A DNA stretch of 64,000 bases, from contig NZ_CP088294.1 of assembly GCF_024666525.1 (NCBI RefSeq), forward strand, positions 1,550,001-1,614,000, given 5' to 3'. The notes beneath the pieces are model-generated. The model ran no database searches. It saw only the letters and a program-made list of their open reading frames with translations, and was not told the origin of the DNA. Position numbers and translations under genes: made by a program. Positions 39,281 to 41,346 of the stretch are shown here, in pieces. The stretch's first letter is position 1. Each line of letters begins with the position of its first letter. This DNA comes from Pseudomonas sp. J452 (GTDB taxonomy: Bacteria; Pseudomonadota; Gammaproteobacteria; Pseudomonadales; Pseudomonadaceae).

Positions 39281-39799
39281 ATGAATCATCTGGTACTCAC
39301 GGTAATCGCCCCGGACCAGCCGGGCCTGGTCGAGCGCATCGCCCAGTGCATCGCCGGCCATGGCGGCAACTGGCTGGAGAGCCGCATGTCGCGCATGGCC
39401 GGGCAGTTCGCCGGCATCCTGCGCGTGGCTGTACCGGCGGAAGGCTACGACGAACTGGTCGAGTCGCTGCAGGCCCTGAATGCCCAGGGCATCCGCGTGC
39501 TGGTGGCGGAAAGCGGCATCGAGCCGTCCTGCACCTGGAAACCGATCCTCCTCGACCTGGTCGGTAACGACCGCCCCGGCATCGTCCGCGACATCACCCG
39601 CCTGCTGGCCGAGCAGGGCGTCAACCTGGAAAGCCTGACCACCGAAGTGGCGCCCGCGCCGATGAGCAGCGAACCGCTGTTTCACGCCGAAGCGGTGCTC
39701 GCGGTACCGCTGACGCTGTCGCTGGATGTGCTGCGCGACAAGCTGGAAAACCTCGCCGATGACCTGATGGTGGAGCTGAATCTGCGCGTCGACCCATGA
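39281..39799 (+). CDS. GcvR-like two-ACT-domain protein
   Basis: The 172-residue protein has two ACT domains, the first at residues 3-80 (LTVIAPDQPGLVERIAQC) and the second at 88-165 (LDLVGNDRPGIVRDITRLL). This layout matches the glycine cleavage repressor GcvR, which in enteric bacteria binds GcvA; in Pseudomonas its partner is not certain. ATG 39281 (MNHLVLTVI) was chosen because the upstream extension is REP-derived. Its stop TGA is followed at once by a hairpin and then by the DnaA-box repeats. Confidence 0.85.
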   Translation: MNHLVLTVIAPDQPGLVERIAQCIAGHGGNWLESRMSRMAGQFAGILRVAVPAEGYDELVESLQALNAQGIRVLVAESGIEPSCTWKPILLDLVGNDRPGIVRDITRLLAEQGVNLESLTTEVAPAPMSSEPLFHAEAVLAVPLTLSLDVLRDKLENLADDLMVELNLRVDP

Positions 39800-39836
39800 G
39801 AATCTGTCTACGATCAAGAGATCGTCGGCAGATTCT
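39799..39836. repeat. Imperfect hairpin abutting the gcvR-like stop codon
   Basis: Arms agaatctg (39799-39806) and cagattct (39829-39836) enclose a second stem cgatc/gatcg. The left arm, gaatctgtctacgatc, resembles the CTGTTTACGATCT repeat end seen after other stop codons. No T run follows, so it is not a classic terminator. Confidence 0.6.
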
Positions 39837-40046
39837 GATATCCCCGAATTCCGGGGATGGACCTGTGGATAAACTGGGGAGCCCCGGCGCACGCACTAGT
39901 GCCCCGGGGCTTTTCTTTAAGTGCCTAAAAAACCAGCAGATTCAGGATGTTGTGCACAAAGGCCGGGGATGCTTCTGTGGATAACCACGGGATGAACGGC
40001 GCCAGGCAGCGGCTGCTGTGGCTTACGTGGGATTGAGCGTTTTCTG
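39837..40046. repeat. DnaA-box repeat unit, copy 1
   Basis: This non-coding unit holds, in order: a CCCCG-loop-CGGGG hairpin (39842-39856), a perfect DnaA box in TGTGGATAA orientation (39864-39872), a ctaaaaaaccagcag block, a palindromic near-box TTGTGCACAA (39950-39959), and a second perfect TGTGGATAA (39976-39984). Box offsets are 87 and 112 bp from the first box. Copy 2 repeats everything exactly 286 bp further right. The unit lies in a 653-bp gap between convergent genes (39800-40452), so it is not a promoter region for either. Confidence 0.75.
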
Positions 40047-40122
40047 AGCGACTGCGCCACCGACCTGGCCTTGGCCATCCCGCCTTTGGCGCACTTGTGT
40101 CCGGCGCAGTTGAGCATCCGGC

Positions 40123-40331
40123 GATATCCCCGATTAACGGGGATGGCCTTGTGGATAAGCTGGGGAGTGGCGGCGCCACCCCTAGTGCCCCGCAGCTTCT
40201 CGGTTGTTGACTAAAAAACCAGCAGTTTCAAGGCGTTGTGCACAAAGACCGGGGATGCTTCTGTGGATAAGGTCGGGATGACTGGCGCCAGGCCAGGCGT
40301 GCTGCAGTCTGTGGCCGTTTGGTTGTTTTCT
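40123..40331. repeat. DnaA-box repeat unit, copy 2
   Basis: This is the second copy of the unit, 286 bp downstream. The perfect TGTGGATAA boxes are at 40150-40158 and 40262-40270, the palindrome TTGTGCACAA at 40236-40245, and a CCCCG-loop-CGGGG hairpin at 40128-40142 whose stem is kept although its loop differs from copy 1. Flanking sequence is clearly diverged while boxes and spacing are unchanged, which suggests selection. The remaining 120 bp up to the rarD stop hold no recognised element. Confidence 0.75.
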
Positions 40332-40452
40332 GTGCAAGACGGGGCGATACCTAGCCCCTAGCCAGGCAGCCGCATAGTTGTAGGGTGCGCCGTGCGCACC
40401 ACCACCCCCGCAGGACCCTCTGCTGCGCACAGGGCGCACCGATGGACTCCCC

Positions 40453-41346
40453 TCAGGCCACCTGCCGGCGCCGCAGACTGATCCAGATATCCAGGCTATA
40501 CAGCGCCAATCCGGCCCAGATGCAGATAAAGGCCAGCAGCTTGCTCGGGTCGAGATGCTCGTCGAACAGCAAGATCGCCTGCAGCATCACCAGGGTCGGC
40601 GCCAGGTATTGCAAGAAGCCCAGGGTGGTGTAGGGCAGATGGCGCGCGGCGGCGTTGAAGCACAACAGCGGCACCAGGGTGATCGGCCCGGCGGCGATCA
40701 GCCACAGCGCCTGCGAGGTGCTCCAGAATGCACCTTGCGTGCTCATCGCCGCCGGATGCCAGAGCAGCCAGCCGAGTGCCAGCGGCAGCAGCAGCCAGGT
40801 TTCCACCACCAGGCCAGGCAGGGCGGCCACCGGCGCCTGCTTGCGGATCAGCCCGTAGAAACCGAAAGTCAGCGCCAGCACCAGCGAGACCCAGGGAATG
40901 CTGCCCACCTGCCACAACTGCTGCAGCACGCCCAGCGCGGCCAGGCCCACGGCCAGCCACTGCAGGCGGCGCAGGCGTTCGCCGAGCAGCAGCATACCGA
41001 GCAGCACGTTGATCAACGGGTTGATGTAATAGCCAAGGCTGGCTTCGAGCATGCGCCCGTTGTTCACCGCCCAGACATAGACCAGCCAGTTGCTGGCGAT
41101 CAGCATGCCACTGATCGCCAGCACACCCAGGCGCCTGGGGTTATTGCGCAGTTCACGCAGCCAGCCCGGGTGCTTCCACGCCAGCAGCAGGGCGGCGCCG
41201 AACAGCGCCGACCACAGCGCGCGATGAACGATGATCTCCAGCGCCGGCACGTTCTGGATGGCTTTGAAATACAGCGGAAACAGACCCCAGATGGTGTAGG
41301 CGATGATGCCCAGCAGATACCCGCGTTGCGGGTTGGCGGTGGCCAT
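40453..41346 (-). CDS. rarD: RarD protein, EamA/DMT-family inner-membrane transporter
   Basis: The 297-residue protein has ten predicted transmembrane helices and the RarD-specific N-terminus RGYLLGIIAYTIWGLFPLYFK (in two parts), GYYINPLINVLLG and the late YTTLGFLQYLAPTLVMLQA region. RarD proteins were linked to chloramphenicol resistance; the natural substrate is unsettled. It is the convergent right-hand border of the DnaA-box region. Order matches the Pseudomonas glcB-to-srkA interval. Confidence 0.9.
   Translation of the reverse strand: MATANPQRGYLLGIIAYTIWGLFPLYFKAIQNVPALEIIVHRALWSALFGAALLLAWKHPGWLRELRNNPRRLGVLAISGMLIASNWLVYVWAVNNGRMLEASLGYYINPLINVLLGMLLLGERLRRLQWLAVGLAALGVLQQLWQVGSIPWVSLVLALTFGFYGLIRKQAPVAALPGLVVETWLLLPLALGWLLWHPAAMSTQGAFWSTSQALWLIAAGPITLVPLLCFNAAARHLPYTTLGFLQYLAPTLVMLQAILLFDEHLDPSKLLAFICIWAGLALYSLDIWISLRRRQVA

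Follow-up and report, generated by a model that had tools for sequence, protein, structure and literature searches.

The gcvR-rarD interval of Pseudomonas sp. J452

The window, i.e. the whole 64-kb stretch of DNA analysed, contains a gcvR-like gene with ACT domains (39281-39799, + strand) and a gene coding for a rarD/EamA-like transporter (40453-41346, - strand). These two genes converge on a non-coding element, of which they are the conserved flanks, both being transcribed towards it. At the base level, four perfect DnaA boxes TGTGGATAA (39864, 39976, 40150, and 40262) and two copies of the palindrome TTGTGCACAA (39950 and 40236) were present, exactly where a first-pass annotation of the sequence had placed them. 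They are arranged in two units in register at +286, each with two perfect boxes and one palindrome. Unit-versus-unit identity was 78, 78, and 80% in three 60-base blocks from 39840, as against 30-45% in the adjoining blocks on either side, which bears out the earlier description of two units 286 bp apart in diverged surroundings. An exact search for further copies of TGTGGATAA or TTATCCACA elsewhere in the 64-kb window returned none, again as annotated. The genome of strain J452, one contig of 4.86 Mb, harbours two copies of the unit, both in the gcvR-rarD interval.

Several readings of the interval were rejected. No sigma-70-like promoter was found at the locus and the flanking genes converge, so a promoter was dismissed here as it had been in the first pass. 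Similarly, a phage origin was rejected, as blastn gave no match among 50,697 phage records. The GC content ranged from 52 to 68% over 39600-40599 (100-base windows), and at this resolution no AT-rich unwinding element of the replication-origin type was evident beside the boxes. An RNA element was rejected on two grounds, namely covariation near zero in RNAalifold (43 aligned units) and a sole Rfam match, up to an E value of 1, that was at chance level and lay outside the element.

DnaA box triads

Each half-unit reads as a triad with a 9-5-9-3-9 geometry, comprising an inverted box I, 5 bp, a weak box II, 3 bp, and a perfect box III. This geometry was taken from E. coli DARS1 and then used to scan three E. 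coli regions and the interval of the window. In the latter, the four top-scoring triads coincided with the halves of both units (19, 19, 17, and 17 of 24). Triad A of unit 1 is composed of box I (ATATCCCCG; 39838..39846, + strand), inverted with respect to boxes II and III and at offset -26 from the perfect box, a weak box II (CGGGGATGG; 39852..39860, - strand) at offset -12, as in the DARS-type 9-5-9-3-9 arrangement, and the perfect DnaA box as box III (39864..39872, - strand; TGTGGATAA on the + strand). Its triad B starts with box I (TTGTGCACA; 39950..39958, + strand), within the palindrome and, counted from the second perfect box, at offset -26, followed by a weak box II (CGGGGATGC; 39964..39972, - strand), which was retrieved by the triad scan and the offset profile, and the perfect box III (39976..39984, - strand). 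The triad scan placed the corresponding boxes of unit 2 at 40124..40132 (box I, ATATCCCCG, + strand), 40138..40146 (weak box II, CGGGGATGG, - strand), and 40150..40158 (perfect box III, - strand) for triad A, and at 40236..40244 (box I, TTGTGCACA, within the palindrome, + strand), 40250..40258 (weak box II, CGGGGATGC, - strand), and 40262..40270 (perfect box III, - strand) for triad B.

Conservation of these features was assessed in 90 units, selected for two exact boxes whose spacing was among seven listed values (49 at 112 bp, 38 at 113 bp, and three at 125 bp), of which 45 were left at <80% identity. The perfect boxes are present in this set by construction; boxes I and II, the A-tract, and the IHF-type motif are not. 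Over the 45 non-redundant units, -26 was the best forward-box offset in both halves, with a mean box I score of 5.36 (half A) and 6.91 (half B) of 8, compared with a mean of about 2 across offsets. Box II averaged about 4 of 8. Among the reverse offsets, its position at -12 came fourth in half A and no better than seventh in half B, the offsets outranking it stemming from the palindrome and the A-tract. The CGGGGAT core of box II in half B was kept at 0.64-0.98 per base. A box I of at least 5 together with a box II of at least 4 was found in 31/45 A halves and 41/45 B halves, and at 90 of 18,000 random positions.

Judged by its sequence, the palindrome holds the first box (box I) of the second triad, which recasts a feature that the first-pass annotation had listed on its own. 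The same applies to the CCCCG-CGGGG hairpin with which each unit had been said to open. Both units of the window contain it, yet only 6/45 non-redundant units retained six or more of the seven complementary positions of the stem, and a conserved hairpin stem was therefore rejected; in this lineage, the sequence reads as the inverted box I/II pair belonging to the first triad.

IHF-type site and folding segments

A putative IHF-type bend site, missed in the first pass, is flanked by the two triads of each unit. The A-tract AAAAAA of unit 1 (39927..39932, + strand) is located 7 bp before the IHF-type core ATTCAGGATGTTG (39940..39952, + strand), which equals WATCARNNNNTTR with one mismatch. Unit 2 carries its A-tract at the same conserved offset (40213..40218, + strand), together with the IHF-type core TTTCAAGGCGTTG (40226..40238, + strand), a match to the IHF-type motif. 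In 34/45 non-redundant units, the motif WWTCAR, and with it WWTCARNNNNTTR, started at offset -36 from the second perfect box, the other 149 offsets together yielding three matches to WWTCAR, and A5 or T5 occurred at offset -49 in 39/45 units. The fuller WATCAR was found in only 8/45 units, the usual core having T for A at the second position. Moreover, 3 bp of the motif fall within the palindrome, and its TTR, being common to box I, is not independent of the latter. The J452 genome encodes IhfA (above the family cut-off). A 6-of-6 motif test for Fis gave a best shared offset in 9/45 units; this test is insensitive, as the E. coli DARS2 region itself gave one match.

The loop between the triads of unit 1 contains a GC-rich stem followed by a T-rich stretch (39876..39915, + strand), resembling a gcvR-side terminator. 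This stem segment folded with a z-score of -4.75, that of unit 2 with only -1.57, and z < -2 was reached in 15/45 units. It was not among the sites listed by a terminator scan, which gave one terminator-like site, at 40301-40315. Segments past the second box folded better than their shuffles (z < -2 in 26/45 units). These downstream segments, the site at 40301-40315, and the position between converging genes are what would be expected of a DnaA-bound architectural or transcription-insulating element, or of a similar-sequence site of another protein. Nevertheless, conservation is highest in blocks that correspond to DnaA or IHF motifs at set offsets, and we regard such a role as highly doubtful.

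Conservation across Pseudomonas and beyond

BLAST with the two units gave matches in 145/199 genomes of the genus, copy numbers being lower bounds with three first-look candidates scored per genome. The closest match to the element was found in genome G118 (88% identity). For the analysis of the locus itself, 110 gcvR-anchored intervals were used, which are not a random sample: they comprise the 30 genomes that matched best, 36 of the 54 without a match (those with the place of gcvR listed), and 44 other, hand-chosen matches, many of which are closed genomes. Two exact boxes 105-130 bp apart were found in 82 of these 110 gcvR-rarD intervals, compared with 0/22,000 base-shuffled intervals. By subset, exact pairs occurred in 25/30 best matches, 41/44 other matches, and 16/36 BLAST-missed genomes. 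The remaining 28 intervals comprised four with one mismatch, all among the 30 best matches, nine with an unpaired box, and 15 with no box within one mismatch, among which G149 has a unit just beyond the fetched stretch. The spacing of 93 pairs of the genus (105-130 bp, at most one mismatch per box) was nearly constant, with 47 pairs at 112 bp and 40 at 113 bp (87/93). Most genomes contained one unit, and two exact pairs were restricted to 3/110 genomes (J452, G118, and G166); the two-unit layout is thus real in the window but is not the usual state. Several further genomes showed additional diverged units.

The perfect boxes were the steadiest part of the gcvR-anchored intervals. This would agree with passive titration, in which a cluster of high-affinity boxes soaks up DnaA, perhaps aided by IHF, and leaves its nucleotide unchanged; the additional units of some lineages would raise the capacity, and titration on the E. 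coli chromosome is argued for in the available part of PMC12371093. Titration alone, however, needs neither a near-constant spacing nor an oriented triad nor a fixed IHF-type site, which makes it an unlikely explanation of the whole element.

A box-palindrome-box scan of 84,980 species returned at least 119 loci. All of those listed adjoin gcvR or rarD, 110 being located between the two genes and nine showing one of the two genes only, at about 90-140 bp from the match midpoint. The 80 titles shown were nearly all Pseudomonas, except for one Pantoea, one Paucimonas, and two other gammaproteobacterial records, which we suspect to be misnamed or unplaced Pseudomonas. Forty family intervals were read outside the main sample, two of them from the same genus. 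Exact pairs with a spacing of 112 bp occurred in 2/7 intervals of g12, the one of g4, and 1/2 of g17. Altered boxes were found in g9 (diverged in 5/5), g19 (two boxes 232 bp apart), and g14 (one box). No boxes were found at the gcvR-rarD interval, the only place considered here, in g2, g5 (five intervals), g6 (four), g8, g10 (two), g11 (two), g15 (four), and g16 (two).

Because boxes and spacing recur at the gcvR/rarD interval, the element is a single conserved site of the chromosome rather than a roaming repeat, and some lineages have lost it or show it eroded. The first pass had named a widespread repeat with unconserved boxes as the case that would speak against a role in DnaA binding; what was found is a single locus with conserved boxes. 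A dispersed intergenic repeat was rejected likewise, the two copies in the J452 genome and all of the at least 119 scan loci, as far as listed, being confined to this neighbourhood.

Box statistics and other sites of DARS geometry

When one mismatch is allowed, the box count of the window by itself does not stand out: six boxes were found against a shuffle mean of 3.5, and 18/100 shuffles reached six. Unusual with respect to chance are the clustering of the boxes and their spacing. A genome scan for box clusters, as proposed in the first pass, revealed three occurrences of the box pair W-N98-120-W in the whole 4.86 Mb genome, two of which are in the element. The reversed control of the W-W pair pattern gave no match in 42 genomes. 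W-W matches beginning with TGTGGATAAAAA and similar sequences were judged to be coding by eye and set aside; they remain only in the raw W-W tally.

The J452 genome contains 31 perfect boxes, 30 of which were tested for triad context. Seven of the 30, when taken as box III, are accompanied by boxes I and II at DARS offsets (sum of at least 9, reached by 0.0079 of random positions), and four of these seven are in the element. Four more fit as box II with scores of 6 and 6, for which no null was made. The 31st perfect box (4398008) is part of a triad scoring 7, 8, and 7 beside a gene coding for an FKBP-type isomerase.

Sites of related geometry were seen in several places. The triad beside the FKBP-type isomerase gene, TTATCCACC-AAAGC-TGTGGATAA-CCT-TGTGCACAA (G000:C1:4397994; L377), scores like E. 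coli DARS1. Similar triads adjoin that gene in G118 and G166, and a similar triad occurs in G194. A lon-like protease gene is accompanied by two strong triads of DARS geometry, 518 bp from each other (G000:C1:1990213-1990760; L023, L024, and L364), and triad pairs 518-521 bp apart occur in G118, G166, and G194 as well. A W-124-W module with an A-tract and ATTCAGCTACTTG inside, and with DARS offsets in both halves, is located between glyA-like and EF-G-like genes (G000:C1:1869338-1869470; L021). The single triad TTATGCACA-5-CGGGGATGA-3-TGTGGATAA (G000:C1:1532169; L014) lies 58 kb from the element, on the oriC side, and some relatives have related sites at a distance of 30-70 kb from gcvR. In g12, tandem modules of the kind seen in the element were found (G318:C1:6205667 and 6206359; G322:C1:6246965 and 6247656), 37-39 kb from the far end of a contig starting with dnaA, the element being absent at gcvR/rarD in both genomes. 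Finally, two g6 genomes (L318 and L319) have a related module elsewhere, with TATCAANNNNTTA between the boxes, as judged by eye. Pseudomonas thus seems, from its sequences, to hold several DARS-geometry sites, the one in the window being the double, apparently IHF-bearing form.

Comparison with E. coli DARS1, DARS2, and datA

In the available parts of PMC10380432 and PMC8682772, a DARS core comprises three boxes, with boxes I and II mutually inverted and box III following, and the head-to-head pair I-II plus DnaA on box III is credited with ADP release in E. coli. The element shares the geometry of this core only, with the exact 9-5-9-3-9 spacing read from E. coli; for the near-consensus boxes I and II expected of a DARS, its mean scores are 5.4-6.9 of 8 (box I) and about 4 of 8 (box II). 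Boxes I and II score 7-8 in DARS1 and in the DARS2 core. The triad scan of the E. coli regions gave 22/24 for DARS1 (by construction), 21 for the best triad of DARS2, which serves as an independent check, and 18 for datA, with a box I of 4/8.

DARS1 (bioD-uvrB interval) has the same triad geometry as found here (TTATCCACT-5-TGTGGATAA-3-TGTGTATTA), but consists of one triad with strong boxes I and II. DARS2 (rppH-mutH interval) likewise has a 9-5-9-3-9 triad, with IHF sites nearby (PMC4245941, in part); the counterpart here is a predicted site, WWTCARNNNNTTR at its one offset. The top triad of DARS2 lies, by eye, between the primers used to delete its boxes I-III (PMC4585315, in part). A second triad of the same geometry, TTATCCCAG-CTTTC-TGTGGATAA-CAT-GGTGTAAGA, occurs 316 bp past that core (L359) and is perhaps among boxes IV-VI, called dispensable in the available part of PMC4245941; the element has its perfect boxes, one per triad, at a spacing of 112-113 bp. 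DARS2 differs further in its gene neighbours and in its strong boxes I and II as opposed to the weak box II here. Fis sites, probed here by the insensitive test above, are required in DARS2. Pseudomonas oriC (rpmH-dnaA) shares perfect DnaA boxes and a WATCAANNNNTTR-type sequence with the element (L007, by eye), but unlike the element it has low triad scores at both perfect boxes.

The third E. coli locus, datA (glyVXY-queG interval), has DnaA boxes round one IHF site, with a spacing that matters. At a datA-like site, an IHF bend would let ATP-DnaA on both sides interact and hydrolyse ATP, so that DnaA would be switched off shortly after replication of the locus. Such a function would account for boxes that flank an IHF-type site at nearly invariant distances, an arrangement also described for datA boxes 2 and 3 (PMC10380432 and PMC4585315, both in part), and the terminator-like stem before the IHF-type site of unit 1 recalls that read-through transcription matters at datA (PMC10950094, in part). 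However, box types and layout are unlike those of datA, which has no triad with a good box I and sits downstream of a tRNA operon, whereas the inverted box I at DARS spacing is kept in both halves of the unit. The stem of unit 1 is not general either.

The distance from oriC also bears on a datA-like function. The J452 element is located 391 kb from dnaA. The gcvR-dnaA distance had a median of 8.8% of the genome (interquartile range 8.2-9.5, range 6.8-17.7; 52/59 genomes), measured from gcvR and not from the element, except for G099 (element itself). Seven genomes were dropped (G121, G139, G175, G176, G209, G250, and G270), and the set of 52 includes genomes without an exact unit, namely G306, G318, and G322 (none at the interval), G113 and G198 (one box), and G286 and five g9 genomes (diverged boxes). 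In E. coli, datA lies at about 10%, DARS2 at 21%, and DARS1 at about 33% of the genome from oriC, the element being at about 9%. The oriC distance is thus like that of datA and unlike that of DARS, yet it may merely mirror conservation of gene order; gcvR was on one side of dnaA in 28 genomes and on the other in 24, and was transcribed away from oriC in 51/52. On balance, a datA-like function is improbable.

Possible role in DnaA regulation

The boxes and their spacing are kept in much of the genus while the surroundings diverge, and the element is very probably a DnaA-bound site affecting replication control. The first pass had left the choice between a datA- or DARS-like element and the array of another protein; the DnaA reading is now well supported, and the DARS alternative gains from a triad geometry common to DARS1 and DARS2. 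The best explanation, to which we assign a probability of roughly 45%, is a two-core, IHF-bent chromosomal DnaA-regulatory site of the DARS type. IHF would bind and fold the DNA that separates the perfect boxes (112-113 bp), thereby bringing together the DnaA molecules on the two triads, and the near-constant spacing fits such a bend joining two triads. In every triad, one DnaA molecule would sit on the inverted box I and another on box II, with their AAA+ domains opposed. Once bound, DnaA in this arrangement would, as in E. coli DARS, free ADP and thereby regenerate initiation-competent ATP-DnaA.

Several findings weigh against the DARS reading. The triad sums of 17-19 do not by themselves beat the 18 of datA and are no higher than it in two halves, so that the case rests on conservation. 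Box II is weak compared with DARS1 and the DARS2 core, and weaker than in other triads of the genome, which counts against the element as the main DARS; the stronger cores at 4397994 and 1990213-1990760 may be the real DARS loci instead. The datA-like oriC distance, the 15/110 intervals without a box within one mismatch and the 9/110 with an unpaired one, the rarity of WATCAR, and the TTR shared between the IHF-type core and box I point the same way. A further reading is a merged DnaA switch, with two DARS-type cores in one IHF-bent loop at a datA-like oriC distance, as one of a chromosome-wide set of DARS-geometry sites, reactivating or inactivating DnaA according to the IHF state; we consider it a quite unlikely arrangement.

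The literature searched yielded no description of a DARS or datA locus in Pseudomonas, although a prior one may exist in Fujimitsu et al. 2009, cited in the available part of PMC10380432 for DARS-like sequences in many proteobacteria. The strong triad form, found in 127/229 gammaproteobacterial genomes (reversed control 0/229), doubles as a search rule for candidate sites. To our knowledge, how DnaA is recharged and switched off beyond E. coli and its near kin is largely open. The element offers a short, non-coding, single-locus target for this question in a genus with good genetics, and the proposed architecture predicts which boxes, which IHF site, and which spacing would matter.
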